Part shown: positions 15,247 through 41,710 of the stretch, in pieces
Layout: every line of letters starts with the position of its first letter
Numbering within the stretch: the first letter of the stretch is position 1
Source of the DNA: a virus
Length of the DNA stretch: 51,095 bases
IMG/VR virus record: IMGVR_UViG_3300021963_010005
Span: 1-51,095 of that record
Direction: 5' to 3' (one strand)
The notes under the pieces: model-generated
The model's database searches: none
Seen by the model: only the letters and a program-made list of their open reading frames with translations
Told to the model about the DNA's origin: nothing
Translations under genes and position numbers: made by a program

Positions 15247-16881
15247 ATGTCTAGATTATCAGAATACTCATCAAAAGAAAGATCAAGCGTGAGAAAGCAC
15301 GAAGATACCATAGTGGAGAACTTTATGGGAGGTAACTCATACACATTAAGTCCCCTGCAAACCCTCAAGATTGTGGCTGCTAGTTCCATCTTTGGAGAGC
15401 CTCAATACTATAGAGACGGGTTAAACACAACCAAGACTATTAAGAATCATTCCACTATTCTGGAATATTCAATTCTTAAAGATTTATTTAAGGATAATAC
15501 CACCGCTGTAGATGTGTTTACGAGCGCAATCGATCGTGCCTTAGATTATGACTTCAAAGGAACTTTAGACTTAGCTACGGAGCTAAGAACAGTGTTTTAC
15601 ATGAGGTTAAATCCTTCTGTTATTTTTGTTCGTGCTTCTGTGCATCCAGGGAGATCAGAATTTAATGAAAAGAACCCAGGTTATATGAAAAACGTGGGAA
15701 AATCGATCGCTTCTCGCCCGGACGATCTAACCAACCAGTTCGATTATTTCATGTTTTTGAACAAGTCTAAAAACAAGTTAAGTTCTTTGATCAAAAGAAC
15801 ATGGGCTGAAAAATTACAGGAATATTCCAGGTATCAATTAAACAAATACAAAGGGAAAAAACTAATTGATTTGGTTAGAATTTCCCATGCTTTTAGCCCA
15901 GATATCGATGAGCTAATGAAGACTGGAACATTAAAGGTAGAGGAAAGTGAAAGAACTTGGGAGAATTTAAAATCTGAGGGAAAGACCTGGACTGAAATTT
16001 TAGAAAAAATTGAAATTCCACACATGGCTCTTTTAAGAAATCTGAGGGGAATTTTCACTGAGATCAATGATGCAGAGGTTGCTAAAAGTGTAGCAGAAAA
16101 ACTTAAGTCTGGGGTATTAAACGGAAAGCAATTTCCTTTTAGATACTGGTCTGCTTATAAAGCTATTGGGAAAGAGAACGATGTTAACCATAAAGGAATT
16201 CTAATGGATGCCCTGGAGGAGTGCATGGATATTGCAGTTGATAATATGCCAAAGCTAAAAGGTAAAACAATTTCTCTTTCTGACAATTCAGGTTCTGCCT
16301 GGGGTTCATGTAATTCTGAATATGGATCTGTTTATGTAGCTGAGATTGCAAACCTATCTTCTTTGATAACAGGTAAGAACTCAGAAGAAGGAGAAATAGG
16401 ATTATTTGGTGATCGATTGATTGTAGAACCTGTTTCTAAGAGAAACGGACTTCTTTCGCAGCTTAAAAAAGTTAATGCTGTTGAACAGGGGGAAGGAAGA
16501 CTTGGGGGAGGAACTGAAAATGGAATTTGGATATTCTTCGACGATGCTACCAAGAATAAAAAACACTACGATAATATCTTCATCTATTCAGATATGCAAG
16601 CTGGACATGGAGGATTATACGGAACAAATCCCAAGGAATATAAGGATTTTATTCATGGGGGAAATGGAAGACACATCGATGTACTTGCTTTAGTTTCTAA
16701 ATACAGAAAGGAAGTAAATTCTAAGGTCAATGTTTTTAGTATTCAGGTTGCAGGATATGACAACTCTGCTCTTCCTGAAAATCTATACAGGGGAGCAATT
16801 CTAGCAGGATGGACAGGCAAAGAACCGATTTTTGCTAAAGCTATTATCGATACATGGGATCAGATAGAATCCAATCAATAA
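15247..16881 (+). CDS. rsr: Ro60/Rsr (TROVE and vWA domain protein)
   Basis: 544 residues, the usual size of Ro60. An N-terminal TROVE HEAT-repeat ring (about 1-330) contains the conserved MALLRNLRGIF (about 260) and PFRYWSAYKAIG (about 297). A C-terminal von Willebrand A domain has the metal-site motif SLSDNSGSAWG (D344-x-S-x-S). Ro60 binds Y RNAs on its outer ring and the ends of misfolded RNAs in its hole; in Deinococcus the Y RNA tethers it to PNPase for RNA decay. The upstream structured RNA makes this a complete Ro-Y RNA locus. Phage Ro60 genes are known in a few mycobacteriophages. Confidence 0.92.
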   Translation: MSRLSEYSSKERSSVRKHEDTIVENFMGGNSYTLSPLQTLKIVAASSIFGEPQYYRDGLNTTKTIKNHSTILEYSILKDLFKDNTTAVDVFTSAIDRALDYDFKGTLDLATELRTVFYMRLNPSVIFVRASVHPGRSEFNEKNPGYMKNVGKSIASRPDDLTNQFDYFMFLNKSKNKLSSLIKRTWAEKLQEYSRYQLNKYKGKKLIDLVRISHAFSPDIDELMKTGTLKVEESERTWENLKSEGKTWTEILEKIEIPHMALLRNLRGIFTEINDAEVAKSVAEKLKSGVLNGKQFPFRYWSAYKAIGKENDVNHKGILMDALEECMDIAVDNMPKLKGKTISLSDNSGSAWGSCNSEYGSVYVAEIANLSSLITGKNSEEGEIGLFGDRLIVEPVSKRNGLLSQLKKVNAVEQGEGRLGGGTENGIWIFFDDATKNKKHYDNIFIYSDMQAGHGGLYGTNPKEYKDFIHGGNGRHIDVLALVSKYRKEVNSKVNVFSIQVAGYDNSALPENLYRGAILAGWTGKEPIFAKAIIDTWDQIESNQ

Positions 16882-19739: not shown

Positions 19740-20432
19740 TTATATCAGATCCTTTATTAAAAATCTAGGAAGGGTTTTTTCGTCGATGTGGCATACACCA
19801 TTAGACTCAAGATCCACAAAAGAAGGATTTCCCCCGAATAAATAATTTATATCTTTAAAATACCTGTTTAAGTGTTGTTGATTCAGAGTTATTGGGGGTA
19901 TATTATTGTACCTTTTTGTAAAAAAATCATAGTTTAAATCTATCACTTGTAAAACATCTTGGTATGTTTTATTCACGTCTGTATAATTATTAGAAGCTAT
20001 TATAGATGTGTTATTTAGCTCTTTAAAATCGAGGGGATTATTAGAATACATTTTATACAATTCGGTAAAGTCATTGATCTGTCCCTCTGTTAGTTCGTGT
20101 TTATAGCACAAATTTAATTTTTTTGGTTCTATGATACTGTTTAGTTTATTAAAATCATTTACAATCAGATCGTTATCTAAATGAATAAAGGGAGATGAGA
20201 TTGATGATAAAACTTTAAGCTTAGGATATGACCATAAGTTGTTTCTTTTATATCTTTCCTCTATATTGAATTCTATCCACTCATATTTCATTCCCCTCCC
20301 AATAAAATAATCTGAATCAGAATAGATCAAAGGAACTATACTCTGCTCGTTCAGTTTTTTTATAGAATGGTTCAAATAAATTTCTGTAACTTCTTTAAGT
20401 CTGATTGGTAAATATGTAAATACTATTTCCAT
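19740..20432 (-). CDS. GT-A-like glycosyltransferase
   Basis: 230 residues. SSISSPFIHLDNDLIVND (D-x-D about residue 86) after WSYPKLKVL is the nucleotide-sugar-binding core of a GT-A fold, similar to DUF6734-type enzymes. Last gene of the minus-strand operon; ATG immediately follows the stop of the methyltransferase gene. C terminus IKDLI. Confidence 0.6.
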   Translation of the reverse strand: MEIVFTYLPIRLKEVTEIYLNHSIKKLNEQSIVPLIYSDSDYFIGRGMKYEWIEFNIEERYKRNNLWSYPKLKVLSSISSPFIHLDNDLIVNDFNKLNSIIEPKKLNLCYKHELTEGQINDFTELYKMYSNNPLDFKELNNTSIIASNNYTDVNKTYQDVLQVIDLNYDFFTKRYNNIPPITLNQQHLNRYFKDINYLFGGNPSFVDLESNGVCHIDEKTLPRFLIKDLI

Positions 20433-21032
20433 TTATATTAAAGACCTTGATTTAATTTTTGTTTTGTCCGATGCTTTTATTTTAACCCTCCACATACCCC
20501 TTTGAAGTTCATCATAGGTGTCAATTAATCCATATTCATCGCAAATTCCGGATAGGTCAGATTCTACTAATCTGCAATAATTCCAAATTTTGTTGTAATA
20601 TTCATTTATAAAAACATTCCTATTCTTACAATAATCATGAACACATATGTAATCACCTCTTTTAATTAGTGGTGCGTAATTTATAAAATCAGTAATTTTA
20701 TTGCCTCCGTCGCAAAAAACAATTGTTCTTCCGTTTGATTGTATAAATGGAGCCATCGTGTTTCTTATTAATTCTTCCGAATTACTATCATGTATTATAC
20801 TTTGGACATTTTCTTTAAAATTATATGAATAAAAATCTTTGGTTTCCACTGTTATAATTTTACTATACGGACATATATCAGACAAAAGATGTGTCAATCC
20901 CCCGCATGCAGTACCTATTTCTACTATATTATCCGGTCTAACATCATTTAAAAAGTTTGGCAGTAAGGTGCTTACACAGTATGATGTTTGCTCTGTAACT
21001 AAATTATTATAAATGCAATGTGACTCTACCAT
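20433..21032 (-). CDS. Class I SAM-dependent methyltransferase
   Basis: 199 residues. IVEIGTACGGLTHLL (about 36-50) is motif I of a Rossmann methyltransferase, followed by an acidic end of strand 2 (TVETKDF) and GRTIVFCDGGNK; the layout resembles cephalosporin hydroxylase/CmcI-type and sugar O-methyltransferases. Probably methylates a glycan or small molecule. Ends KSRSLI. Confidence 0.75.
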   Translation of the reverse strand: MVESHCIYNNLVTEQTSYCVSTLLPNFLNDVRPDNIVEIGTACGGLTHLLSDICPYSKIITVETKDFYSYNFKENVQSIIHDSNSEELIRNTMAPFIQSNGRTIVFCDGGNKITDFINYAPLIKRGDYICVHDYCKNRNVFINEYYNKIWNYCRLVESDLSGICDEYGLIDTYDELQRGMWRVKIKASDKTKIKSRSLI

Positions 21033-22282
21033 TATATTAATGATTTTTTTATCACAAATTCTTCTTTTAATTTGCCATCTATTATCATATCCAGTAAAGA
21101 ATTTTCTTCCTCTATTTTGTGCATCAATTTATGATGTACCAAATCTGACCATTCTTTGCATAGTTTATAGTTCTCCTGGAAATTGTTAAGAAATTCGCTA
21201 ACAAATTTGGCAAACATTTTTCCGTTTGCTTTACATTTTTTTGAAGATTCATAAAAAGGATGAGAAGGAACCAGAAGAACCTTTTCTATTATGGCCAAAG
21301 GATATTCGTGTGTAGAAATAAAAGGAATTCCTGCCAGCATAAGTCCAATAGTTTTTTCGGAAAGATACTGGGATTTAAAATCCTTGTTACTCCAGGACCA
21401 GCTTTCACATAATATTTGCATTTTTGCTTTCGGTAAAACCCTAAAAAATACATCCATGTATCCCTTATGGTTTTCTATGTAGCTTATGTCGCCAAAGTCT
21501 TTATTTCCTATGATCGAATTTATTTTTATGTGCGGAATAATACCTGAGTTATTTAGATAGTCTTCGTTTTGTAATGCATCACTGCGTTGAAGTAATATCC
21601 TGCTATCCTTTAATTTGCTTAGCTCGTTAATGATCTCAACCCTGTTTATTTTATGGTTTTTTATGCTATACATGAGATCATAATCAAAATCCAATTTATC
21701 ATATATTTGTTTAAACTCGTAATACCATCTAACCGACCAATTTTGATTCCATTGAAAGATGATGTTTGTAAAAGAATAATAGAAATTAGGATATTGAGAT
21801 TCTATCACATCGTTCAGGAAGATATTATCGGTAACAATGTGATGGTCCTTTAATTTCCTTATGATGGATTCTATTTCTGACCATTTTTCGTCAAAGTAAT
21901 TTATATCCTTTGTTTGTAGTATTTTTTCTGTTCTGAAATACGTTATTATCCATTTTTGATTAGCTGGACAATCCCCCAGTAAATCCAGAAAAGTATTTAA
22001 GATCTGCTGAGTTTCGCCCTCCATATATTTTTTATCATGGATAATAGTTCCAATCTTAGGATCGTTGGTCTCGTTGAAAAATGCAGTAAAGTAGTCCAGA
22101 AGATGATATCCATCTTCTTCAAATGTGATTTCTTGTTTAAAAATAACCTCGATATCAATATCTCGATATCTACATAAAACACTTCCCTCTCCGTTTTCTA
22201 TCTTATACGATCTACCCTCTGTGTTGTGAGCAATCTTATAAAATAAAGATTTTTGATAAAAATGATGGATGTATATTTTCAT
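21032..22282 (-). CDS. Putative GT-B-like glycosyltransferase
   Basis: 416 residues. The C-terminal half (SEKTIGLMLAGIPFISTHEY, then a helical F.EFLNNFQENYKLC) matches the pattern SEKt..p...g.PFI in both halves of the 829-residue protein at 33681, so the two are related. The N-terminal half is divergent. The likely role is sugar transfer on a surface glycan. Ends VIKKSLI. Confidence 0.55.
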   Translation of the reverse strand: MKIYIHHFYQKSLFYKIAHNTEGRSYKIENGEGSVLCRYRDIDIEVIFKQEITFEEDGYHLLDYFTAFFNETNDPKIGTIIHDKKYMEGETQQILNTFLDLLGDCPANQKWIITYFRTEKILQTKDINYFDEKWSEIESIIRKLKDHHIVTDNIFLNDVIESQYPNFYYSFTNIIFQWNQNWSVRWYYEFKQIYDKLDFDYDLMYSIKNHKINRVEIINELSKLKDSRILLQRSDALQNEDYLNNSGIIPHIKINSIIGNKDFGDISYIENHKGYMDVFFRVLPKAKMQILCESWSWSNKDFKSQYLSEKTIGLMLAGIPFISTHEYPLAIIEKVLLVPSHPFYESSKKCKANGKMFAKFVSEFLNNFQENYKLCKEWSDLVHHKLMHKIEEENSLLDMIIDGKLKEEFVIKKSLI

Positions 22283-22807
22283 CTAGATTATTTTCTTTTC
22301 AAAATTATTTAGATCACCTTTTCTTAATCTGCCAGGGTGATTCAAATCGTAGATATTTTCATAGTAAGTGATAGGAATTTTTAGACTTTCTGACAGATAC
22401 TGGATTTCTTGGTTCCATTTCTTAATTGATTCATATTCTGAATCATAATTAGGTGTTTTTTCCCACAGATATGGGTCTATAGATTTGAAGTCTTTTTCCT
22501 GTCCCTTATAAATTAAATAAGCCCAACTTTCTGCGCATGCTATAAGATCCTTTCTTGAGAGAAGGATAACTTCTTCAAATTTTTTAGTCAGATCAATAAT
22601 CCAATCTAATCTGTCCCTTTCTTCCACGTTTTTAGGCTTGTGAAAAATTATTGTTTTGACCACCATTCTTTTAAAATCTACCGGCTCTGGAAGATTTGCC
22701 GCTGGGTTAAAAAGTTCAAATCCATACTGATACTTTTTCTGAACTGATAAAGATCTGCCCAATTCTGTCGACCCCGTCCTAGGTAAAGCTACTATTAAAA
22801 TACTCAT
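22283..22807 (-). CDS. PAPS-dependent sulfotransferase 1
   Basis: 174 residues. P9-R-T-G-S-T14 (IVALPRTGSTELGRSL) is the 5'-phosphosulfate loop, and VILLSRKDLIACAESWAY (R85 and S94) is the 3'-phosphate-binding motif of PAPS sulfotransferases. It would transfer sulfate from PAPS to a hydroxyl, on a sugar or Tyr. Shorter than most family members (250+), so it may be a minimal domain. It overlaps the upstream oxygenase gene by 4 bases. Confidence 0.7.
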   Translation of the reverse strand: MSILIVALPRTGSTELGRSLSVQKKYQYGFELFNPAANLPEPVDFKRMVVKTIIFHKPKNVEERDRLDWIIDLTKKFEEVILLSRKDLIACAESWAYLIYKGQEKDFKSIDPYLWEKTPNYDSEYESIKKWNQEIQYLSESLKIPITYYENIYDLNHPGRLRKGDLNNFEKKII

Positions 22808-23370
22808 AACAAGGTCTTGTTAACTTTAATTTTGGGATAGTCAAAATCTGTTTCAGTCATCCATATATTTAAAGCATATCTAGTTCCTTTGATAACAGGG
22901 AGTACACCATGGTAAGTGGAGGATCCGTTAAATGATATGCTGTCACCTAATTTTAAATCAAATAGAGATAGACCATCCAGACTTTCAAAATGAAAGGGAG
23001 GATTTTCTATTTCGGATAGAGAAAATTGGCCACCCTCAAATCCCTCTGACAGGACTATTACGGTTGTCAGCTCACTAGATTTATCTTTATGGAGGTTAAG
23101 GTATCTCCCGTTGTAATATGCTGTTAAACTGATATTAAAATTTTTTGGAACGAATGTGCTGTAATCAAACCATAGCTTAAAATCTCCATTTTTGTATTTG
23201 GAGTTTAAACTGTTGAATATTTTTTCTTTAAATGCTGGGTCATAAATTCTTCTACAATCCCAAGATTCTGTTGGCTTGTAGGAAAAAGGCTCTCCGTGCT
23301 CAAGACAAAAATTAATGATCTCTTTAGCTTCTTCGGCTGAACAAAAATTATTGTTTATGTTATAATTCAT
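22804..23370 (-). CDS. 2OG-Fe(II) oxygenase
   Basis: 188 residues with a P4H-like facial triad: H94-x-D96 (LHKDKS), H154 (STYHGVLPV) and 2OG-binding R164 (GTRYALNIW); the strand EGGQFSL and LGDSISFNG are also typical. A hydroxylase of a free or peptidyl substrate. Four-base overlap with both neighbours, ends VNKTLL. Confidence 0.8.
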   Translation of the reverse strand: MNYNINNNFCSAEEAKEIINFCLEHGEPFSYKPTESWDCRRIYDPAFKEKIFNSLNSKYKNGDFKLWFDYSTFVPKNFNISLTAYYNGRYLNLHKDKSSELTTVIVLSEGFEGGQFSLSEIENPPFHFESLDGLSLFDLKLGDSISFNGSSTYHGVLPVIKGTRYALNIWMTETDFDYPKIKVNKTLL

Positions 23371-24188
23371 ATTAAATATGAACTTTTTATTCTAGTCTGT
23401 TCTAGCAGATTATTATCAGAGATAAACCTATACAATTCTTCTGCTATTATTTTATATCCCAATCCGCTTGGATGTTTTCCTGCGGTTGAATTTGTCCAAT
23501 AATTTCCATCTTCCCAGACATCCTTTCTCTTTAAATTAATTAAGAAATCTGCAAATGTTTTTTCTCTATACCCCCAGTAATTTTTATTTTCTATTAATTC
23601 AGTTTTATCTACCTCAGCAACAATATCCTTTCTGATCATAATGTCAAAAGCATCGCAAAAAACATATCTTATTCCTAGATTTTTAAGTACAAATTGCAGG
23701 TACAGAATGTAATTCTGGTTGATTATATCGTGATAGGTATCTGTGAATAGGTTAGTAATGTAATAGTCCCTAAAATCCTTTTCTATCCTTCCATAATCAG
23801 GATTTAGATTATTTCCTCCGTCGAAAATATATTTGTACAAATGCTTTTTGCTTTTGTATCTTTCACCCCAGATAGAAAAGCTATGATCACCAGGAAAAAA
23901 TGGTAGAGAATCTCTCAGAGACGAAGACCACATCACTACAACGAGATCCTCTTTTTCGATAAGATTGTTTTTTAGTTTGTAGCAAAGGGCATTAAATATT
24001 GCATTATTAGAGAAAGCCCCTACCCCGTCATTTTGGAAATCACATCCAAGTAATTCCGATAGTTGCTTAGGCCAGCAATATTTGTGTCTTATGACAGTTC
24101 TTTCCTCTGGTATCTCGGTAGTTTTCTCTTCCTCTGAATTTCCGCCTACTCCTTCTGTCCAGCTATCGCCGTAAGCGAATAATTTCAT
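23367..24188 (-). CDS. SGNH/GDSL-type hydrolase
   Basis: 273 residues. Block I GDSW (7-10, AYGDSWTEG), a Gly-Asn block (GVGAFSNNAIFN) and the catalytic His in KHPSGLGYKI near the C terminus are SGNH features. An esterase or acyltransferase that adds or removes acyl groups on glycans would fit the neighbours. No signal peptide. Ends IKSSYLI. Confidence 0.7.
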   Translation of the reverse strand: MKLFAYGDSWTEGVGGNSEEEKTTEIPEERTVIRHKYCWPKQLSELLGCDFQNDGVGAFSNNAIFNALCYKLKNNLIEKEDLVVVMWSSSLRDSLPFFPGDHSFSIWGERYKSKKHLYKYIFDGGNNLNPDYGRIEKDFRDYYITNLFTDTYHDIINQNYILYLQFVLKNLGIRYVFCDAFDIMIRKDIVAEVDKTELIENKNYWGYREKTFADFLINLKRKDVWEDGNYWTNSTAGKHPSGLGYKIIAEELYRFISDNNLLEQTRIKSSYLI

Positions 24189-24192
24189 AGGA

Positions 24193-24333
24193 TTATCCCA
24201 GATGCTTATTTTTTATAGCAGTAACTACTGTCTGAAAAGCCGTTGCAATCTTAGTCTTTAAATCTACAGATATTGGTGCAACAATCGCTTTGATAGTTTG
24301 TGCGGGTCTTTCGATTCTTTCTTTCTTTGCCAT
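24193..24333 (-). CDS. Small protein between hydrolase and Hint genes
   Basis: 46 residues (start MAKKERIERPAQTIK). A basic N terminus and an Ala/Thr/Ile/Val-rich helix (KTKIATAFQTVVTAIKNK) are predicted. It fills the gap between the SGNH gene and the ATP-grasp/Hint gene and is read in the same direction. Coding status is supported by an uninterrupted frame and conserved spacing only. Confidence 0.55.
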   Translation of the reverse strand: MAKKERIERPAQTIKAIVAPISVDLKTKIATAFQTVVTAIKNKHLG

Positions 24334-24349
24334 TATATTTTAATTGTTT

Positions 24350-25840
24350 TTAAATTTTATTGGGTGGGCCTCCTGAGCATGAAGGACAGTACCAGCTATT
24401 ACACCAGTGTCCGCAATAGTTCCAAGGACACCAGCAGCTATTGTGCATTACCCCAAAATCCCCATCCCCAAAATCAACCAAGAATAGGTCGGAAGGTTCG
24501 AAATCCAAACTATAGATAGTTTTTTGAGCATGCTCCATTTCTAAACCTGTAATAGCAATTGTTGTTAAAGAAGCTGTCGTTGCATCTGTTATCACCAATT
24601 TATCTCCGACGTACATTTTATTTACTCTCTCAAATCTTGTTGCAGTGGAATCTTTTTCTTCAATGAAATATGTTGCCGATGGTGCATCAGTCCAAGTTCT
24701 TCCATCTGCTAAAGTTATTCTTATGTATATTGTATCCACTTGGGAAGAAACTGTTCCCTGTAAAGCAGTTTGTGTTTGAACGAGGGTTTCGTTTGCTCTT
24801 TCCATTGTGCTATCCCATCCAAATGTTTCTATCTTTTCTTGTTCAAATTTTGCTGCGTGATTGTCGTTAAAGTCGACATAATCAATGGATCGAACGTAAT
24901 CACCCAATTGAATACTATCGATATCAGTCAGGGTTCCATCATAACTTAATATCACGCTATCATCGTCAGTGTGATAATCATTTTTAGCGAAATTACCTAT
25001 TTCCTTTGTTAGATATTTGTATCTGCTCTTTTGATTTAATTTATTAGTTCCTGGTAAAACCTCATCTTCGGCGAAGGTAAGCGGTATTATTGTGGATTGT
25101 GTATATCCACCCATATTGATAACATCAAGATTTGAACCATAAATAATGTCTATACTTCTTATGATCGAATATCTTCCCTCTACTAAATTATCTTCGGAGA
25201 AGATGAATTCTTGGACTAAATGATTTTGATCAGCAGAATTTTTAAGTTCTCCTAGTTCGGATACGTTTGATATTCTGTATAATGCAGGATAATCTAAAAC
25301 ATTATAATTAGGTCTTCTAGCTTTTATTAAGGTGTTAGGATTTGTAGTTCTTTCGTATTCTACTGAACCCAAAGAGTCTAAATTTAAATTTTCAGAAGCA
25401 AAATAAGTTCCTGGTATGTATGAAGATCCCTCCATCAAGGCGAAGAATTCAAATTTATCTGCACAATACGTTTCATCAACTAAAGCTGTAGTATCGAATG
25501 CTTGTCTCAGGATGAATTTATAAGGCTGATCCTCTATATAGGGAACAGTCACAGATCCAACAGGTACTGGATATTCAGCAAATGAAATATTGTTCTCTAA
25601 GCATTTTTCTTCCAGGATTTTTTTGAATCTGTATTGTTCAGTGAGAGGTTTATAAGCATCCCCTTCTGTCCAAATAAAATGGAATTCAGTGATGCTATTA
25701 TTATTTAATACCTCGAATAATTGGGTATAGTCTAATAAATCTGCACCCTGATTATAAATCGTGGTGTTGGTGTTTATTTCCAAAAATTTAACAGAGTCTC
25801 CAGCTTGTAGTAAATCACTGCCAATTATTGTTGCTTTCAT
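24350..25840 (-). CDS. ATP-grasp-like/Hint protein with Cys/Trp-rich tail
   Basis: 496 residues. The N-terminal part (KFLEINTNTTIYNQGADLL, YKFILRQ, TLIKARRPNY, VQEFIFSEDNLVEG) resembles an ATP-grasp fold. A Hint domain follows from about residue 300 (SYDGTLTDIDSIQLGDYV; IRITLADGRTW; a block-F-like IYSLDFEPSDLFLVD) and ends GVMHN, with H466-N467 followed by S468. Its expected first Cys and block-B His are missing. The last 29 residues hold six Cys and four Trp. The tail could be released at HN|S. The ATP-grasp part is the less secure call. The gene begins the operon half ahead of the SGNH and sulfotransferase genes. Confidence 0.6.
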   Translation of the reverse strand: MKATIIGSDLLQAGDSVKFLEINTNTTIYNQGADLLDYTQLFEVLNNNSITEFHFIWTEGDAYKPLTEQYRFKKILEEKCLENNISFAEYPVPVGSVTVPYIEDQPYKFILRQAFDTTALVDETYCADKFEFFALMEGSSYIPGTYFASENLNLDSLGSVEYERTTNPNTLIKARRPNYNVLDYPALYRISNVSELGELKNSADQNHLVQEFIFSEDNLVEGRYSIIRSIDIIYGSNLDVINMGGYTQSTIIPLTFAEDEVLPGTNKLNQKSRYKYLTKEIGNFAKNDYHTDDDSVILSYDGTLTDIDSIQLGDYVRSIDYVDFNDNHAAKFEQEKIETFGWDSTMERANETLVQTQTALQGTVSSQVDTIYIRITLADGRTWTDAPSATYFIEEKDSTATRFERVNKMYVGDKLVITDATTASLTTIAITGLEMEHAQKTIYSLDFEPSDLFLVDFGDGDFGVMHNSCWCPWNYCGHWCNSWYCPSCSGGPPNKI

Positions 25841-25868
25841 AGTTTTCTTTCTTTATAATGTATATACC

Positions 25869-26156
25869 TTAAATTATAGTGTTGGTATTTTTTCTTGGAG
25901 AGGGCTCCATATATTCGGAATCTACCTCCCCCCAATACTCCCTCGTACATGGGTTGTAGTGTTTGGAAAAGATCTTTTTATTTATCGGACACCCACAATC
26001 GTTACAATATGCTGACCATTTAACTCCCTTTAATACCTCTCTTCTCTGATCACATCCAAGACACACGTTAAGCCTTTTTTGGGCTAATTCCTCCTGTTGC
26101 TGATTGGGTTTAAAAGATGCCTTCCAAGCTTCAAATATCTCTTTGTAATCGATCAT
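25869..26156 (-). CDS. Small zinc-ribbon-like protein
   Basis: 95 residues. Two CxxC-type knuckles, CLGCDQRR and CNDCGCP, and a further C (NPCTREYW) point to a zinc ribbon, typical of small phage proteins of the form FK.....E..A..R...C..C....C..CGC. It probably mediates nucleic acid or protein contact. It lies just upstream of the Hint gene in transcription order and overlaps the previous gene by 4 bases. Confidence 0.6.
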   Translation of the reverse strand: MIDYKEIFEAWKASFKPNQQQEELAQKRLNVCLGCDQRREVLKGVKWSAYCNDCGCPINKKIFSKHYNPCTREYWGEVDSEYMEPSPRKNTNTII

Positions 26157-26944
26157 ATCAATGTTTTCTTATTCTTTGGAAAGTCATAATAATCATATAT
26201 TTTTTCATACCTTTCCCTAAAATTATCATCCAGAACTATTTTACAGTCCATGTGTTTGCTCGAATTTACCGGATACAATTGGAAAGGTTTTTCGATTCTT
26301 TCAGAAACCCAATTTTCCAATTTTGGTAGTTCTTCAAAATCAAACCAAATTATATTGGGATCATTGTTTGTCCAGAAAGAAATTGGGGTTAGCAATATAT
26401 CTATCATATTAACCGCATATCCTTTTCGCTCCCTTTTAAAGTATTCCTCTTCGGATTTTCTGAATTTTGATGTTACTGACACATCTACTCTTTCTTCCAA
26501 TAGTCCCTTATCAATTAAGTAGTCACATATGATATTCCATCTTTGTTTTTTGTTTGTAATATCATCTTTAGTAAAAAAGAATAACTCATCAAGGGATAAT
26601 TTAGAAAATGCATCATAGAATCTAATAAATCCGAGTCTTTTAAAATCGAATAAAATGTGTTTATATAAGGAATAAAATCTTTCATGTCTTTGTCTCTTAA
26701 CTGAAATTATAGGATAGCTGTTTCCGAACTTAGATTGTAACTCTACAATAGATTCATGCCCATGATAGATGTAGTCCATTAATTTCAATTTGTCTACCGA
26801 CTTAAAATCGATATTCCCGTTTGATTTTTCCCATTCCCCATTATATGTTTGGATGTCTATTCCATTAACCAAACAGGAATAATGAAATGATGTCGATGCG
26901 CATCTGGGTAAACTTAAATAGAAAAATTTATTATCTACTAGCAT
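26153..26944 (-). CDS. PAPS-dependent sulfotransferase 2
   Basis: 263 residues. FYLSLPRCASTSFHY (P13 to T18) is the phosphosulfate loop of sulfotransferases, and IISVKRQRHERFYSLYKH (R84, R89, S92) is the 3'-phosphate motif. Its full length suits a carbohydrate or protein sulfotransferase. Sits between two 2OG oxygenase/zinc-ribbon genes. Ends PKNKKTLI. Confidence 0.7.
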   Translation of the reverse strand: MLVDNKFFYLSLPRCASTSFHYSCLVNGIDIQTYNGEWEKSNGNIDFKSVDKLKLMDYIYHGHESIVELQSKFGNSYPIISVKRQRHERFYSLYKHILFDFKRLGFIRFYDAFSKLSLDELFFFTKDDITNKKQRWNIICDYLIDKGLLEERVDVSVTSKFRKSEEEYFKRERKGYAVNMIDILLTPISFWTNNDPNIIWFDFEELPKLENWVSERIEKPFQLYPVNSSKHMDCKIVLDDNFRERYEKIYDYYDFPKNKKTLI

Positions 26945-27514
26945 TTATAATAATGTTTTTTTGATTTCCTTAGATGGCCACACGTTCATAGAATATCTAA
27001 TCCCACTTATTATAGTATCAACCGCATGAGGAATATTCGAATCAAAAACAAAAACACTACCAGTTTTTTTGTTGACGCAATATTCTTTGTCATTTATTGA
27101 ATATTTTACATCTCCCCCCTCGTAGTCATCATTGAGTTGGATAATATAGGTTATAGTTGCTCCATTTATTATTTCATGTGTATCTGGATGCCAGTCTAAA
27201 AAATCCCCGACTCCGTATTGATTGAAAGAATATTTAGGAACTCCCACATAAGATATACCTTTAAATGGATTTAACTTATTTGAGAGATCTATTATTTTAT
27301 CTGAAACGTTTTTAATTAATGGGAGATCCAACATTTTATTAGTGAAATATCCACCCATTCTTTTATTGCCATCATAATCCATATTTTCCCCAATCAATTC
27401 TCCATTTATGATCAGAGATGATTTCATTTTAGTTAATCCCAAAGAACATCCTAAATCTATTATAGACTGGCATTCCTCCTTGGTTAAAAAATCCTCTATG
27501 TATTTTATGAACAT
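26945..27514 (-). CDS. 2OG-Fe(II) oxygenase
   Basis: 189 residues: H109-x-D111 (DWHPDTH), H163 (NIPHAVDTII) and R173 (GIRYSMNVW), plus ITYIIQLNDDYEGGDVKY, a clear P4H/PKHD-type fold. Hydroxylation substrate unknown. Ends IKKTLL; coupled to the sulfotransferase gene downstream. Confidence 0.85.
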   Translation of the reverse strand: MFIKYIEDFLTKEECQSIIDLGCSLGLTKMKSSLIINGELIGENMDYDGNKRMGGYFTNKMLDLPLIKNVSDKIIDLSNKLNPFKGISYVGVPKYSFNQYGVGDFLDWHPDTHEIINGATITYIIQLNDDYEGGDVKYSINDKEYCVNKKTGSVFVFDSNIPHAVDTIISGIRYSMNVWPSKEIKKTLL

Positions 27515-27515
27515 A

Positions 27516-28169
27516 TTATATTAACGATTTTTCTTTTTTAATTAATTCAAATCCAACATTGCCTGCCATAACTATTCTATCCACTGTGGAATTTGGTGCA
27601 TTGTTAGGAGAATGAGGCATATCAGCTTCCATAATGATTAAATCATCCTCCTCTGGTCTGATCCAATATTCTTTCTTATTTGAACCCCTAAAATATAAAA
27701 CTCCATCCTCACCATTCATAATGTCTGGCATTTGTATATAATAAACATATGTGTAATTTGGAACGAACGATTTCATTTCCTTGTTAATTTCTGTATGCAC
27801 ATGAAATTTATCAACCCCTTTAATCTCGCTGTGTTTAAATTGTAATTGAACCGGATCTTTTGATCTTACAACATTCACCCATGCATCAGTATTAATCTTG
27901 TTATAAGGTAATTTTTTCTCGCTGTATATTTCTTTACAAAGATCAACTCCTATTTGAATAATCTCGTCTAATTTTATCTCCATGTTAAAATTCCCAATAA
28001 AATCTAAGTCGTTATTCCATTCTTTTTTGTATCCAAATCCATCAGTTTTAACATCAGGATTTGCTTTTATGATAGAATAAGCTTCTTCCAGATAAGCCAA
28101 TTTATTATCAGATTTATTCAATTTGGTTTTCCAGATAAATGTTGTCTCGTCGAAATATATTTTTTCCAT
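27516..28169 (-). CDS. Divergent 2OG-Fe(II) oxygenase
   Basis: 217 residues of the putative 2OG_FeII_Oxy_5 type: FHVHTEIN (H125-x-E127, with Glu replacing Asp, or H123), then MPHSPNNAPNSTVDRIVMAGN with H186 and R198. The family carries out hydroxylations in phages and bacteria; the Glu variant makes the activity less certain. Starts next to the halogenase gene. Ends KKEKSLI. Confidence 0.65.
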   Translation of the reverse strand: MEKIYFDETTFIWKTKLNKSDNKLAYLEEAYSIIKANPDVKTDGFGYKKEWNNDLDFIGNFNMEIKLDEIIQIGVDLCKEIYSEKKLPYNKINTDAWVNVVRSKDPVQLQFKHSEIKGVDKFHVHTEINKEMKSFVPNYTYVYYIQMPDIMNGEDGVLYFRGSNKKEYWIRPEEDDLIIMEADMPHSPNNAPNSTVDRIVMAGNVGFELIKKEKSLI

Positions 28170-28170
28170 G

Positions 28171-29403
28171 TTAAATCAATTCCTTCTTATTTCTGACTCT
28201 GTTTTTAATACCATTGTTTATAATATTCCACGAATCTGCTGGAAAAATTCCAACGATTTTCCAAATTTTATGCATTGGAAGTTTTGGTTTAAAATCATTG
28301 TCATGGTTCAAGAGATACTTTAAATTTTCAGGAACTTCTTCGGTAGATCTCTTTATTTTTTTCCAAAAATTACTGGAAGTTTTGTCACCAAAATAATGGT
28401 AGTAAATAAAAACCATGTTTTGATCATTCACCTCACGAACTAATTCATTATAATTTTTATCTGTTTTGTTTTTGGTATACATCTTATAAAAAGCATCCAA
28501 TTGGATTACCGTTGTCATGATTGATGTTGCCTCCAAAGGTTCTAAAAATCCCCCGCTCAATCCAATCGCAACGCAATTTTTTATCCACACCTTTTCGTAA
28601 CATCCTGGAGTGAATTTTATTAATTTATTGAAATTTACATCATATCCTAAAAAATCTATTACCTCTTTTTTAGCTTCTTCCTCCGTTATTTCGTTCATGT
28701 CAAATATGTAACCACACCCGATTCTTGTTTGAAGAGGAATTTGCCACATCCATCCATTTTTCATAGCGATTGCTCTTGTTTTTGTATAAAGATTTTTCTC
28801 CATATTTTCTATAAAGAATGGTATAGCTGAATTTACCATCAGATGTTTTTCGTAAGAAATCCATTTTGAATTATAATGCTTACCTATTAGTAATCTTTTA
28901 AATCCGCTACAATCAAAAACGAAGTTAGCATCAATTATTTTGTTGTCTGTTTTTAATCCTATTATTTCGTTTTTTTCGTTTGTTATTGGATCGGAAACAA
29001 TTCCTTCAACCCAAATAACCCCCCTTTCCATTGAAATCTTTTTAAGATACTGAGCAAGAAGTCTAGCATTAAAGTGAAACGAATGAGACGCCACTATAAA
29101 TGTTTTATCATATTGTAAAGGATGAAAATATGATGAATTTTCATCTGTCCAATTTTCAAATTCAATTCCAATCTTTAATGTAGATTCACAATTTTTTATA
29201 AGATCATCATCTGATATTCCAAGTTCGTTTAAAAACGATTTTAGATTTGCAGTTGATCCTTCTCCCGCTCCCAATATTCCAATTTCTTCACTTTCAATCA
29301 AAGTGATTTTCGATTCTTTAAATTTATGATTTAAATAGAGTGCGGTTAACCATCCGGCGGTACCTCCGCCCACAATCACAATATTATTTAAGTTAATCTT
29401 CAT
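28171..29403 (-). CDS. Flavin-dependent tryptophan halogenase
   Basis: 410 residues. FAD-binding GGGTAGW (12-18), catalytic-type Lys77 in CESTLKIGIEFENW, equivalent to K79 of PrnA/RebH, and W218-x-W220-x-I-P (GWMWQIP) are diagnostic for flavin-dependent halogenases, which carry WxWxIP; SGGFLEPLEATSI supplies the conserved Glu region. It would chlorinate or brominate Trp or a related indole, with FADH2 from a host reductase. No flavin reductase gene is seen nearby. Somewhat short of the 500+ usual length. Ends RNKKELI. Confidence 0.88.
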   Translation of the reverse strand: MKINLNNIVIVGGGTAGWLTALYLNHKFKESKITLIESEEIGILGAGEGSTANLKSFLNELGISDDDLIKNCESTLKIGIEFENWTDENSSYFHPLQYDKTFIVASHSFHFNARLLAQYLKKISMERGVIWVEGIVSDPITNEKNEIIGLKTDNKIIDANFVFDCSGFKRLLIGKHYNSKWISYEKHLMVNSAIPFFIENMEKNLYTKTRAIAMKNGWMWQIPLQTRIGCGYIFDMNEITEEEAKKEVIDFLGYDVNFNKLIKFTPGCYEKVWIKNCVAIGLSGGFLEPLEATSIMTTVIQLDAFYKMYTKNKTDKNYNELVREVNDQNMVFIYYHYFGDKTSSNFWKKIKRSTEEVPENLKYLLNHDNDFKPKLPMHKIWKIVGIFPADSWNIINNGIKNRVRNKKELI

Positions 29404-29948
29404 ATCAAATTCTGTTTTGATGAATCTGTTTTAATAATTGAAATCCAATTAACTAAAGAATATCTTACCCCTTCTTCGACCTTGGTTACTCTATGACGTA
29501 AATTAGATTTGAACATGTATAAATTACCAACTTTATACGTGATGGGTATTAGATTTCCTCTAGAATTTTTAATCTCCAGAATGCCTCCAGAATAGCTATC
29601 ATTAAGCTGAATAACTGTTGACATAAATCTATCACTATATGATACGGAATCTCGATCAGTGTGCCATCCGTAGTATTCACCTTTTTTATATTCTGTGAAT
29701 TGAAATGGACCTAAACCTGTTACTTCCGTTCCTGCAAAATTAAAATTCGACCTTAGAGCATTTTTTAATCTTTCATTTATTTCTCCTAGGTCTTTTATCC
29801 ACGCAACTGATGATTTTCTTTCTTTATAACTCTCATCAACAACTCCTGCAGCAGATAAAACTAATTCTTCCTTACACCTGTTTAAAATCAGGAGACATTC
29901 ATCACCAGATAAAAAATCTTCAATGATATTGATTTCATCGTTTATCAT
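29400..29948 (-). CDS. PKHD-type 2OG-Fe(II) oxygenase
   Basis: 182 residues: H96-x-D98 (YGWHTDRDS), H152 (LRHRVTKV), R162 (GVRYSLVNW) and STVIQLNDSYSGGILEI, a complete prolyl-hydroxylase-like fold. It overlaps the halogenase gene by 4 bases, so the two are coupled and may act on the same substrate. Ends SSKQNLI. Confidence 0.85.
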   Translation of the reverse strand: MINDEINIIEDFLSGDECLLILNRCKEELVLSAAGVVDESYKERKSSVAWIKDLGEINERLKNALRSNFNFAGTEVTGLGPFQFTEYKKGEYYGWHTDRDSVSYSDRFMSTVIQLNDSYSGGILEIKNSRGNLIPITYKVGNLYMFKSNLRHRVTKVEEGVRYSLVNWISIIKTDSSKQNLI

Positions 29949-30154: not shown

Positions 30155-30532
30155 TTATCCTTTATTTTCGTCGTAGGTTACTGTACCGTCTGGTTTCATG
30201 TGACCCGTTCTGATAGCAGTTCCGCTGATAGCTGCAACATCTGCTGGGGGTTCATGATAGATCACATCATATCCTACTCCTCTGCCGTAGTTTACTGATT
30301 CAATATCAGGAATGACCGAAATGAATAATCTACCTTCCTGAATCAGATCAAGAAGTTCGATCTTTAATTCTTCAAATACCTGAGCTGCACTTTTAGGGTT
30401 ATTTTCATCCTTGGGAACGTCCCTGATTGCCAGCCATACGTTTTTCCCTTTGTCCAATTGCTGGTCGATTAGCCATCTGTGGCCTTTGTGCCAATTTTGC
30501 CATCTTCCGATGTAGAGTGCGTATTTTTTCAT
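30155..30532 (-). CDS. HxGH nucleotidyltransferase (possible APS-forming)
   Basis: 125 residues. H15-K-G-H18 in GRWQNWHKGHRW and ISGTAIR (102-108) are the two ATP-binding motifs of HIGH-type nucleotidyltransferases. Both NadM-type NMN adenylyltransferase and ATP sulfurylase carry them. It is read as the second gene after the APS kinase, and two sulfotransferases follow in the operon, so ATP sulfurylase-like activity is attractive, but NMN adenylyltransferase is equally compatible with the motifs. Confidence 0.7.
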   Translation of the reverse strand: MKKYALYIGRWQNWHKGHRWLIDQQLDKGKNVWLAIRDVPKDENNPKSAAQVFEELKIELLDLIQEGRLFISVIPDIESVNYGRGVGYDVIYHEPPADVAAISGTAIRTGHMKPDGTVTYDENKG

Positions 30533-30536
30533 ATTA

Positions 30537-30968
30537 TTATACTCCTATTAATGATTTAAGATTTTCGAATGATTCATCGATGGTATCACCATTTTCGAAT
30601 ATCGAAAAGTTTTTCAGTGGGAATTCAAAATCACTAGCATGAAATTTCTCTTTTCCTGCATAATGACCTCTTTTAAAGAGCACCTCTATAACATCGTTAT
30701 TCGCTTTTAAATCCTCCCTAATTGCACGATAAGGACAAACCATACTTATTACCACATTGTAATTTTTTTGGCTCATAAAACGAGCTATAGTAAAGGATTT
30801 TTCGATGTTGCGAATTCTTCCAGAATAGGAATAATCAGTGTTAGGGAAAATCTCCCTCAGATCGTCTCCGTCGATCCAGATTGTTTCTTTCTTCCCGAGG
30901 TGGTTAACTAATCTGTTTGCCATTTCGGTTTTACCTGTTCCTGGCTGGCCTATAAGTAAGTAAATCAT
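30537..30968 (-). CDS. cysC: Adenylylsulfate (APS) kinase
   Basis: 143 residues. P-loop G7-QPGTGK-T14, the APS pocket IDGDDLREIF (D33-G-D35), SGRIRNIEKSFTIARFM and VISMVCPYRAIRED (CPYR at 78-81) are the CysC signatures. It makes PAPS from APS and ATP. First gene of the block on the minus strand, ahead of the nucleotidyltransferase and two sulfotransferases. Slightly shorter than the common 170-200 residues. Confidence 0.8.
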   Translation of the reverse strand: MIYLLIGQPGTGKTEMANRLVNHLGKKETIWIDGDDLREIFPNTDYSYSGRIRNIEKSFTIARFMSQKNYNVVISMVCPYRAIREDLKANNDVIEVLFKRGHYAGKEKFHASDFEFPLKNFSIFENGDTIDESFENLKSLIGV

Positions 30969-32811: not shown

Positions 32812-33684
32812 ATGATACCCAAGCAAGGAGCAAAAACACATAAAGGGATGATTTTCGCGGGATGTTCATTTACCTGGGGGCAGGGACTTTATTATTACAG
32901 TAATCTTCCAAGCCTCAAAGAGCCACCACCAGATGCTTATGATTCGAAGCTAGTGAGTTATCCTCACATAAAGTTTATGGAATCTGTTCGATACCCAAGA
33001 ATTGTTGCTGATCATTTCGATTCTTTTGAATTCGTTTATCCAGGAAACGGCGGATCAAACGAGGGTGCTATCGATTGGTGGATGCACTGCTTTACAAAAG
33101 AATTCCCTGGGCATGTTTTAAATGGATATAAAGTGCCACCTATCGATCCAAAAGAAATTTCTTATGTCATTTTCCAATTAACACAATGGCAAAGAGATCA
33201 TTTTCTTCTTCAAAGTGAAACTGATACGTACGATATTGCTTTCCACCAAATTTCTGAACCTGCTTATGCAGATCATTTTTTAGGGTGGATGGAGAGAAAG
33301 GGATTTGAGCTTGATACGTGGATAGAGGACTATAAGCAGAAAAGTATAGATCGTATTAAAAAATTTCTATTGTATTGTGAAGGAATGGGAATGAAAACCC
33401 TTCTTTTTACTTGGCCCAATGAATATGTTGAATTTATAAATAAAGATCCGTTTTTATCAGAAAGATTTTTAAAGATGGAATATAAAGGAAGCTTGTATGA
33501 TAGTATTTCAGATTTAATGTCTCCTGGAGCTATGCACAATAAATCATATAATCCTGAATTAACTATAAAATGGGACGAAGAAAGATTTTTGATTACACCG
33601 AAGGATCATCATCCTTCACTTAAGTGTCATCAGGTAATTGCTGACAACATTATAAAAAGGATCGAAAGAGATAAATTAAGATGA
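32812..33684 (+). CDS. SGNH-like protein, paralogue 2
   Basis: 290 residues. GMIFAGCSFTWGQGLYYYS is nearly identical to the paralogues at 31209 and 38784; NGGSNEG and KDHHPSLKCHQV carry the Asn and Asp/His blocks. It probably de-esterifies or acylates glycans, like the other two. Its stop overlaps the start of the 829-residue gene. Confidence 0.65.
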   Translation: MIPKQGAKTHKGMIFAGCSFTWGQGLYYYSNLPSLKEPPPDAYDSKLVSYPHIKFMESVRYPRIVADHFDSFEFVYPGNGGSNEGAIDWWMHCFTKEFPGHVLNGYKVPPIDPKEISYVIFQLTQWQRDHFLLQSETDTYDIAFHQISEPAYADHFLGWMERKGFELDTWIEDYKQKSIDRIKKFLLYCEGMGMKTLLFTWPNEYVEFINKDPFLSERFLKMEYKGSLYDSISDLMSPGAMHNKSYNPELTIKWDEERFLITPKDHHPSLKCHQVIADNIIKRIERDKLR

Positions 33685-36170
33685 ACCAAAAAGTAAATTT
33701 CGTTTATGATGACTGGGACGAAGGAAGTTCTAGTCCTAACCCAAACGGACAAAAATGGTTTCCAGAGGATGATGCTTGGTGCACTGCAGCAGTTCCAATG
33801 GAAGCATTGAAATTTTATAATTATAAAGAATTCAGAATAGAGGACGTTGAAAAATATCCATCTGAAAATTTTTTCTATCTTGTTTGGCATAGACATTCTT
33901 TATACAATAGATTTTTTTCCCTCAGTAAAATTCCAATCGGTTTGGACATCATAGGAATGATAAAAAAACACAAAAACCTTTATCTTCTTTTAATAAATGA
34001 GCAGGAGTTTGAGAGGTTTGAATGCTTAAAGGCAGCAGAGGATGTTTTTCGAAAATATGATTTTGATCCGAAGAAAGTTTTCTTGGTAAACAATAATGCT
34101 AGAAATGCAGAATACAAGGAGGAATTTGGAATAAATCTGAATGTTCACGGGACACGGGCGGAGCCACTTTCTCTCACAAAAATTCCCAAGATAAATTTTA
34201 TAGAGGATAAGAAAGGTCCGTTCTTCATGTCACATAATCATTCTCTTAGAGAACACAGATTAGGTCTTATTTGTCTTCTTAAAAAATATGGAATAATAGA
34301 TAATTTTGATTGGTCATATCTTAGACTCTGGACATTAAAAGATTCTGATCCGATGGCAATATTCGGGAGAATGTTTAATAAAACGGATCTTGAATTTCTT
34401 AAAGACGAGATTGATTTTTTGATTAATCACGGTACCAAAAAAAGCGAATATGAATCTCACTTTACTTGGCTGGATGATAAGATAGACGGAAGTCCTTCCT
34501 GGTGGAAAACTTACAACCCAGCTCAGTATGAACAAACATACTTCAATGTGACGACTGAGACCCTTTTCACTATGAAGGATGTTCATATAACGGAAAAGAC
34601 CTTTAAGCCTTTCATACATCTTCAATTTCCGATGATATTAGCTTCGCAGCATCATTTAAAATTTGTCAGGAAGTTTTATGGCTACGATTTCTTTGATGAT
34701 GTTATAGATCACAGCTATGATGATATTAAAGACGATAGAGATAGACTTTTTAAATTCGTCGAAGAAATAAAAAGAATAAACGATAATAAGGATTTCTTTA
34801 TAGATTTTTATAAAAAGAACAAGGAAAGATTTATTGCTAATCAAGAAAAAGTTTACGCAACAACAAATCATTACGATGATAAATTCTTCAATTTTCTGAT
34901 TAAATTCAATCGTCCAGAAAAGACCCTAAATTTAGTATATGATAATTGGGATTCAGTTCACAATAAACCAATTGAAGAAAATTCTAAGAATGTGTTTAAC
35001 ACAGATTTCCACATGATATTGGATAGCGTTGTTAAATCCCTACAGTTTGATGAATATCTAATTAAAAGATTCAGAATAGAGGATGTCGAAAAATATCCAG
35101 ATGAGAAATTTTTCTATTTCTTAACCACTATTCCAGGAAAGATATCAGAAAATCTCAAAGAGGGTAAAAGTCCAATTGCAAAAAAAGCAATAGATTTTTG
35201 GAGAAAATGCGAAAATCTTAACGTCATGATGATGAATGAGCAGGAATCAGAAAATATTGATATCCTAAATCATCTTGATAAATGGACAAAGGATCTAGGA
35301 TTAAATCAAAAACAACTTTGGGTTTCTAACAATAACACAAAGTTGCAAGAGCATAAGGAGAGAATAGGAACTGATATAAATGTTCATTCGACAGTAAGGC
35401 TTCCCAATTTTACAGCTGCTGCTTTTTTACATTCTGCCGGTAAACTTGATTTTAAAACTGAAAAAGATGGAGGATTTTTCATGTGTCAAAACAGAAGAGC
35501 CCGACCTCATAGATATGCCTTACTTTGTATTCTTAGAAAGATGGGAATTATAGAGGATGTTGATTGGTCTTTGGTTCAAGGATGGCAATTCACTAATGAT
35601 CCGAATGGATGGATTTCACAGGTATTAAACCCTAACGATATTGATGAAATGCAGGATCAGATTAATTACTTTGGATCTATAGAACAGAAGAAGTGTAGGT
35701 ACGAAGAAAAGTATACTTGGTTTGACGACAGAAGCAATACAGATAATGTCCCTTGGAACAAAACCTATGATAAGGACCAGCTAGAAAATTCTTATGTAAA
35801 CCTGACAACAGAAACGGAATTTCAAACTGATCATATCCATATCTCCGAAAAATCATTTAAATCGTTCTATGCCTTGCAATTTCCTATGATTTTGGCATCT
35901 CCCTTCCACATCAAAGAGATCAAGAAAAAATATGATTTTGATTTTTTTGATGATGTTATAGATCATAGCTACGATGAAGAGACTAATCACAGGGAAAGGC
36001 TTTTTAAGTTTGCAAAGGAAGTTAAAAGAATAAACGACAATAAAGAATTTTTTATTGAATTCTATAAAAATAATAAAGAAAGATTTTTGGAAAACAATAG
36101 AAGAGTTATTGCTTTGGTTGATGATAAGACCGACGAAAAATTTTTAAAAAAATTAGCAGGAATAATATGA
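33681..36170 (+). CDS. Duplicated two-domain glycosyltransferase-like protein
   Basis: 829 residues with an internal duplication: residues about 1-410 and 414-829 are homologous (NFVYDDWD vs NLVYDNWD; FRIEDVEKYPSE vs FRIEDVEKYPDE; EKTFKPFIHLQFPMILAS vs EKSFKSFYALQFPMILAS). The final SEK-F...PMILAS block is also present in the 416-residue gene at 21032. Both halves probably have GT-B-like Rossmann folds. Substrate unknown. It overlaps the epimerase gene by 4 bases. Confidence 0.6.
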   Translation: MNQKVNFVYDDWDEGSSSPNPNGQKWFPEDDAWCTAAVPMEALKFYNYKEFRIEDVEKYPSENFFYLVWHRHSLYNRFFSLSKIPIGLDIIGMIKKHKNLYLLLINEQEFERFECLKAAEDVFRKYDFDPKKVFLVNNNARNAEYKEEFGINLNVHGTRAEPLSLTKIPKINFIEDKKGPFFMSHNHSLREHRLGLICLLKKYGIIDNFDWSYLRLWTLKDSDPMAIFGRMFNKTDLEFLKDEIDFLINHGTKKSEYESHFTWLDDKIDGSPSWWKTYNPAQYEQTYFNVTTETLFTMKDVHITEKTFKPFIHLQFPMILASQHHLKFVRKFYGYDFFDDVIDHSYDDIKDDRDRLFKFVEEIKRINDNKDFFIDFYKKNKERFIANQEKVYATTNHYDDKFFNFLIKFNRPEKTLNLVYDNWDSVHNKPIEENSKNVFNTDFHMILDSVVKSLQFDEYLIKRFRIEDVEKYPDEKFFYFLTTIPGKISENLKEGKSPIAKKAIDFWRKCENLNVMMMNEQESENIDILNHLDKWTKDLGLNQKQLWVSNNNTKLQEHKERIGTDINVHSTVRLPNFTAAAFLHSAGKLDFKTEKDGGFFMCQNRRARPHRYALLCILRKMGIIEDVDWSLVQGWQFTNDPNGWISQVLNPNDIDEMQDQINYFGSIEQKKCRYEEKYTWFDDRSNTDNVPWNKTYDKDQLENSYVNLTTETEFQTDHIHISEKSFKSFYALQFPMILASPFHIKEIKKKYDFDFFDDVIDHSYDEETNHRERLFKFAKEVKRINDNKEFFIEFYKNNKERFLENNRRVIALVDDKTDEKFLKKLAGII

Positions 36171-41120: not shown

Positions 41121-41128
41121 ATGTTCTT

Positions 41129-41710
41129 TTATATTTTATGAATGAAATTACAATTTCCTGTTGTGTCTACGTATTTACCAAATACAAATTCTTCAAATTC
41201 GTGGTGGCAAATAAGATCCCCGTCTTTAAATATCTCTATTTCGTGGACAGTAAATTCCCGATAATTTAGATTAAATCCGTTCTTAGGAAAATTTCCAGAT
41301 CCGAATATTATATGGGAGTTCTCATCTCCTGCAATTCCTTTTTTTAGGAATTTAGTGATATATGTAACCTCGTCGAGGGTAACAGATAAAACACCACTTA
41401 TTTTTTTGATGATTAATTCATACTTTTTGTTTATCTCCCAATCGAAGTTTATGGTAATGTATTCAGGATCTGTATTTTTTTCTGTAACGATTAACATGAA
41501 TCCGTAATCCTCTAAATCAAATCCAAAATAGCTGGGAAGCTTAGCAAAAAGTGTTCCTTTTTCTTTCACTGGCTCTTCCAGTTCAAATATTATTCTAAAC
41601 TTGAAATCACCCTCGCTATCAAAAACTTTGTTAGCAGGATTTTCTATAAAATTGTTAGCCATTATATCTGGCCACATTATCCAAGGTTTACCTGATTCAA
41701 TTTTTAACAT
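41129..41710 (-). CDS. LamG/ConA-like protein
   Basis: 193 residues, beta-rich. HIIFGSGNFPKN, EFTVHEIEIFKDGD and a D-TTGNCNF end resemble the concanavalin A/LamG sandwich and the inserted domains of the GT7 proteins downstream. Located between the two radical SAM genes. A possible carbohydrate-binding protein or substrate of the radical SAM enzymes. Confidence 0.45.
   Translation of the reverse strand: MLKIESGKPWIMWPDIMANNFIENPANKVFDSEGDFKFRIIFELEEPVKEKGTLFAKLPSYFGFDLEDYGFMLIVTEKNTDPEYITINFDWEINKKYELIIKKISGVLSVTLDEVTYITKFLKKGIAGDENSHIIFGSGNFPKNGFNLNYREFTVHEIEIFKDGDLICHHEFEEFVFGKYVDTTGNCNFIHKI

Follow-up and report, generated by a model that had tools for sequence, protein, structure and literature searches.

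Several described systems invite comparison with the viral locus considered here. In polymorphic toxins a pretoxin Hint domain is located directly ahead of a short C-terminal payload, and in the borosin-type RiPPs the core peptide is fused to an enzyme, namely a methyltransferase. In intein tools a Pro following the terminal Asn disfavors C-terminal cleavage. BIL/Hint domains are represented by the BIL domain of C. thermocellum (2lwy) and BIL2 of Tetrahymena BUBL1 (6y75). C-terminal cleavage by Asn cyclization can proceed independently of the initial splicing steps (PMC7765530), and the His at F:13 is dispensable in some inteins (PMC4031507). Finally, cyanophage clusters with halogenase, 2OG-oxygenase and carbamoyltransferase genes have been suggested to make a secondary metabolite (PMC7824862).

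The window, i.e. the whole 51,095-base stretch analyzed, is one entire virus record. It encodes a protein of 496 residues (24350..25840; minus strand here and below unless indicated) that combines an ATP-grasp-like domain, a Hint domain and a Cys/Trp-rich tail. Its Hint domain resembles the above BIL domains in fold (residues 290-467), in the terminal His-Asn and in the variability of the next residue. Unlike them, it has a His at position 1, lacks the block-B His and shows what is read as an Asp for the F-block His; furthermore, it sits behind an ATP-grasp-like enzyme, is followed by only 25-33 residues and is invisible to sequence profiles. As in the polymorphic toxins the Hint domain directly precedes a short C-terminal payload, but here the payload is conserved and belongs to a biosynthetic-type cassette, with no immunity-type partner recognized. 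As in the borosins a short C-terminal peptide is carried by its own enzyme and clustered with possible tailoring enzymes, but the enzyme is ATP-grasp-like rather than a methyltransferase, a Hint domain intervenes and the system is known here from genes alone. The cyanophage clusters share the marine tailed-phage setting and the halogenase beside 2OG oxygenases, but the passage describing them names neither a Hint/ATP-grasp fusion nor a Cys-rich tail (PMC7824862). A search of one literature library for the ATP-grasp/Hint combination in phages returned no paper.

Domain architecture of the ligase-Hint protein

Searches of Pfam, PHROGs, NCBIfam and PADLOC with the 496-residue protein gave no convincing match, and PDB sequence searches with whole-protein and Hint profiles recovered none; the Hint domain is recognized by none of the sequence profiles tried and is identified by its fold match alone. 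The whole-protein AlphaFold model has a mean pLDDT of 69, and the N-terminal half (residues 1-289; 24974..25840) is better predicted when modeled by itself (pLDDT 77). All long fold matches of this half are to enzymes of the glutathione-synthetase type: the full-length matches comprise glutathione synthetases, YgiC/YjfC and glutathionylspermidine synthetases, with Z of about 5 to 6.8 over about 190-229 aligned residues, a range in which a Z under 8 may reflect a common arrangement, and Foldseek retrieves 3k1t with an E-value of 3.6e-3. Positions invariant in this region are E21-x-N23, R112, D116, K129, K173, Q210-E211 and R228, among which E21, N23, K173, E211 and R228 are assigned as putative metal- or ATP-contacting residues by analogy only. 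The E-x-N close to the start, which is shared with YgiC, YjfC, GS and GspS, fits the permuted order of the glutathione-synthetase family; unlike those enzymes, the phage half has no sequence-level match and carries the Hint domain and tail. We regard it as a probable permuted, glutathione-synthetase-type ATP-grasp domain, and the fold scores lend moderate support to the ATP-grasp-like half proposed in the initial annotation.

The Hint domain (residues 290-467; 24440..24973), likewise proposed there, is confirmed by its fold. Foldseek pairs the model with 2lwy, the BIL domain of C. thermocellum (E 9e-8), and VIA aligns it to the Tetrahymena BIL2 domain with Z 16.6 (rmsd 2.0 over 140 residues) and to dozens of inteins with Z above 13. 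In these VIA alignments residues 290 and 467 equate to residue 1 and the terminal residue of several inteins. In place of the Cys, Ser or Thr nucleophile at Hint position 1 there is an invariant His290, and the His of the block-B TxxH motif is missing from residues 376-395, in agreement with the earlier remark that the missing N-terminal Cys and block-B His speak against splicing. The only conserved His residues of the domain are H290 and H466; from motif reading, the Asp at F:4 is D446 and the F-block His is apparently replaced by Asp451. At the C-terminus, the H466-N467 dyad (24440..24445), a candidate Asn cyclization site, does not vary even in relatives with only about 60% identity, and the +1 position, where an intein would have a nucleophile (Cys, Ser or Thr), varies and includes G, A, P, Q and N beside S and T. 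Splicing is excluded because the invariant His290 replaces the splicing nucleophile; full splicing of either class 1 or class 3 was rejected on this ground together with the absent block-B His and the unconserved +1 nucleophile. Cleavage at N467 by Asn cyclization is nevertheless possible, as judged from the sequence, because the His-Asn is invariant, uncoupled cleavage is on record (PMC7765530) and F:13 can be dispensed with in some inteins (PMC4031507).

The protein ends in GVMHN followed directly by SCWCPWNYCGHWCNSWYCPSCSGGPPNKI. This tail (residues 468-496; 24353..24439) is rich in Cys, Trp and Tyr, with six Cys and four Trp within the 21 residues CWCPWNYCGHWCNSWYCPSCS, just as first described from the reading frame at 24350-25840. 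Since the other 467 residues hold just two Cys and three Trp, the enrichment is far above chance (binomial 3e-10 for Cys and 9e-6 for Trp).

Phyletic distribution and conservation of the tail

No match to the 496-residue protein was found by tblastn in 50,697 annotated phage records including cultured phages, and no relative was found in GTDB genomes. In IMG/VR, by contrast with these, relatives occur on more than 100 viral contigs. Six large IMG/VR records of 115 to 289 kb each have a single copy of the gene, and the carriers are large tailed phages, because one 160-kb contig with the gene also has genes for baseplate wedge proteins and for long tail fibres. They constitute a family of uncultured marine phages, and the protein has never been annotated before.

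Every complete homolog retains a Cys/aromatic tail; homologs without it were named at the outset as a finding that would refute the initial reading. An alignment of 52 sequences shows no variation at H466, at N467 or at five of the tail's six Cys, and hardly any at the remaining Cys. Among 69 distinct tails, 65 contain six Cys, three contain eight and one contains nine, with the non-Cys positions being variable. The residue after N467 is Ser in 36, Gly in 11, Thr in eight, Ala in six, Pro in five, Gln in two and Asn in one; the Ser originally emphasized after the His-Asn is thus correct for this protein but is not a conserved feature of the family. The tails with additional Cys (CWCC...CC; L376 and L077), eight or nine in total, hint at paired Cys. 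A scan of 2.9 million viral contigs with the tail pattern CWCxWx[YF]CG..C recovered at least 80 stretches; all 70 newly fetched loci belong to the ligase-Hint family except for two chance ORFs, and for the matches listed we rejected the idea that the tail is a mobile module also carried by other proteins.

These patterns bear on the main alternative, which we consider somewhat unlikely: the Hint domain could be inactive and the tail unreleased, in which case the tail would be a built-in site for metal binding or disulfides within an ATP-grasp enzyme whose substrate is something else, e.g. the small protein P46 described below or a surface molecule. The His at position 1, the block B devoid of His, the Asp read at the usual F-block His and the variable +1 residue, Pro included, would all be in keeping with inactivity, and the fixed positions and nearly always even number of the tail Cys recall a folded metal or disulfide site. 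However, an inactive domain has no obvious need for an H466 and N467 that stay invariant down to about 60% identity, and the tail is modeled without structure (pLDDT about 30), though AlphaFold models are built without metals.

A conserved gene cassette

The ligase-Hint gene is embedded in a cassette (19740-29948), whose order was derived from gene clustering of 84 loci. It runs from an optional kinase/NMNAT-like gene through one or more 2OG oxygenases, a halogenase, a 217-residue 2OG oxygenase, an optional further 2OG oxygenase and a 263-residue sulfotransferase-like gene; thereafter come a 95-residue Cys-rich protein, the ligase-Hint gene, P46, an SGNH gene, a 2OG oxygenase, a 174-residue sulfotransferase-like gene and variable genes. 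In the window, the upstream edge is a 2OG-Fe(II) oxygenase with the C-terminus QNLI (29400..29948). It is followed by an optional protein of the flavin-dependent Trp-halogenase family (KELI; 28171..29403), the 217-residue 2OG-Fe(II) oxygenase-like protein (KSLI; 27516..28169), a further 2OG-Fe(II) oxygenase (KTLL; 26945..27514), the 263-residue sulfotransferase-like protein with a PRCAST motif and no Pfam match (KTLI; 26153..26944) and the 95-residue Cys-rich, zinc-ribbon-like protein with weak family matches only (NTII; 25869..26156). The 217- and 263-residue proteins are invariant partners. Downstream of the ligase-Hint gene are, directly next to it, P46 (24193..24333), a conserved protein of 46 residues ending in KHLG, an SGNH/GDSL-like hydrolase (SYLI; 23367..24188), a 2OG-Fe(II) oxygenase (KTLL; 22804..23370), the 174-residue sulfotransferase-like protein with a PRTGST motif and a weak PF13469 match (KKII; 22283..22807) and three genes of uncertain class encoding 416, 199 and 230 residues (KSLI, RSLI and KDLI; 19740..22282). 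The neighbors listed in the initial annotation, i.e. the Trp halogenase, hydroxylases of the 2OG type, two sulfotransferase-like genes and a radical-type gene pair (39669-43082), are all present.

Linkage was assessed by independent searches with the 217-residue oxygenase and the 263-residue protein, taking the best 80 loci of each. All 114 loci that have either gene and enough flank also have the ligase-Hint gene, a count in which many loci share a contig with others and beyond which more distant loci lacking the gene could exist; P46 is encoded in 113 of them. The same two proteins have no tblastn match in cultured phages, and six cassette proteins have no match to known anti-phage defense proteins in PADLOC.

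The halogenase is less constant, being present in 21 of the 27 cassettes with enough upstream sequence, and on this count it was rejected as the key partner. The six cassettes without it still have tail Trp; halogenation of the tail Trp, one of the modifications that the initial annotation proposed looking for, is not upheld as the central idea, because the halogenase is optional. The enzyme shares 30-41% identity with halogenases from cyanophages and pelagiphages in culture; the three regions inspected, around the halogenases of HTVC008M, P-SSM2 and S-H38, showed no comparable cassette, and the enzymes there do not have the C-terminal tag described below.

P46 (xERPxTVIK...LKTKxATAFQxVVxxIKxKHL) is conserved over its full length and has no family match. 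A second alternative, to which we assign little probability, makes P46 the real peptide substrate of the ATP-grasp half as well as of the tagged enzymes, with the Hint domain and tail as a recognition or regulatory piece. It would agree with the position of P46 next to the ligase-Hint gene in 113 of 114 loci and with its being untagged, small and conserved. On the other side, P46 lacks a variable core and is poor in the residues on which such chemistries typically act, and the Cys/aromatic tail and the Hint domain are left unaccounted for.

In several phages, tail-fibre genes of 1600-2200 residues lie close downstream of the cassette (L097, L091). Because of this proximity modified fibres are a conceivable target, and a third, improbable alternative is that the cassette decorates the virion surface (tail fibres or glycans), with the ligase-Hint protein as one more surface-modifying enzyme. 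The glycosyltransferase-like, radical SAM, epimerase and SGNH genes nearby would suit such a role, but the one-to-one linkage of the oxygenase, the sulfotransferase-like gene, the ligase-Hint gene and P46 points instead to a closed pathway, and the Hint domain and tail again find no explanation.

A shared C-terminal tag

About a dozen unrelated enzyme families encoded by this cassette and the 84 related loci end in a common tag, K-[ST]-[LI]-[LI]-COOH, with a wider form [KNSQE]-[STKNEY]-[LI]-[LI] across unrelated cassette families. The strict tag is found in 429 of 517 distinct cassette proteins as against one of 179 distinct flanking-family proteins, and any two hydrophobic terminal residues in 512 of 517 as against 18 of 179, a contrast that is descriptive, given that the pattern was defined on the same families and that the sequences are mutually related. 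The tag also occurs inside the cassette on proteins outside the defining families, such as those with 199 (RSLI), 383 (KTLI), 389 (KTLI) and 246 (KSLI) residues, and, at other places of the 160-kb genome, on the products of some epimerase and SGNH genes. A DNA-level signal was rejected: the Leu, Ser, Thr and Lys codons of the tag are near background, with Ser encoded as both TCN and AGY, and because of this the signal is placed in the protein. Ile is encoded preferentially as ATA, a bias that plausibly stems from ATGA overlaps with the following gene. The tag resembles a class I PDZ ligand and might serve to bring the enzymes together on one shared partner. Among the regular cassette members, the ligase-Hint protein (K[ILV] in most) and P46 (KHL[GS]) alone lack it, which fits substrates or a hub rather than tailoring enzymes.

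Functional interpretation

A tailoring pathway with the tail as candidate core peptide would most simply account for three things together: the Cys/aromatic peptide fused to an enzyme, the one-sided Hint domain and the enzyme set tied to them. Our best reading, a tentative one with chances clearly short of even, is that the protein processes itself and serves as the ligase-fused precursor of a modified peptide. Under this proposal the Cys/Trp/Tyr-rich tail would be modified while bound to its carrier by the 2OG oxygenases and sulfotransferase-like proteins, and optionally by the halogenase, SGNH hydrolase or a radical SAM protein. Release would follow afterwards, with the Hint domain freeing the tail through cyclization of N467 assisted by H466, and the ATP-grasp half could cap the new amino end or join something to the new end. 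In favor of a precursor are the retention of the His-Asn over a Hint fold spanning 290 to 467 despite the loss of the N-terminal chemistry, and the match of the N-terminal half to peptide-bond-forming ATP-grasp enzymes (YgiC, glutathione synthetase and glutathionylspermidine synthetase). Against it are the apparent Asp451 at the F-block His, the Pro after N467 in five of 69 tails, the tail Trp that does not follow the presence of the halogenase, and the middling ATP-grasp match (best Z 6.8). What the locus offers toward a possible RiPP pathway is the conserved fused tail and the conserved P46 as putative precursors, and clustered, linked oxygenase, halogenase and sulfotransferase-like genes whose products may act on a peptide; neither a known RiPP precursor nor a leader-binding domain nor a transporter turned up.

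The wider proposal of a new class of phage modified peptides, with a ligase-fused core, one-sided release by Hint and a dozen unrelated enzymes gathered by K-[ST]-[LI]-[LI] as a docking tag, is distinctly doubtful. Marine phages commonly encode flavin halogenases and 2OG oxygenases, enzymes whose natural substrates are for the most part unknown; here a conserved candidate substrate is encoded beside such genes. If correct, the proposal would imply that phages make tailored peptides during infection and that there is a new way of cutting a peptide from its carrier. The common C-terminal tag provides a simple, testable means of searching for every member of such pathways.

Other genes in the window

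The radical SAM genes at 39669-43082 constitute a pair with twitch domains (NF033640, E 1e-90 to 1e-101), with a 193-residue protein encoded between them and two glycosyltransferase-like genes near; a like pair is present in the 160-kb relative. Two adjoining short ORFs at 30155-30968 match the two ends of the PHROG kinase family phrog_10255 and apparently represent a single bifunctional enzyme split into two genes. On the plus strand, an 829-residue protein (33681-36170) consists of two similar halves, indicating an internal duplication, and belongs to no known family. Also on the plus strand, a 544-residue protein (15247-16881) matches PHROG 850, an RNA-binding protein family, and is possibly TROVE-like.
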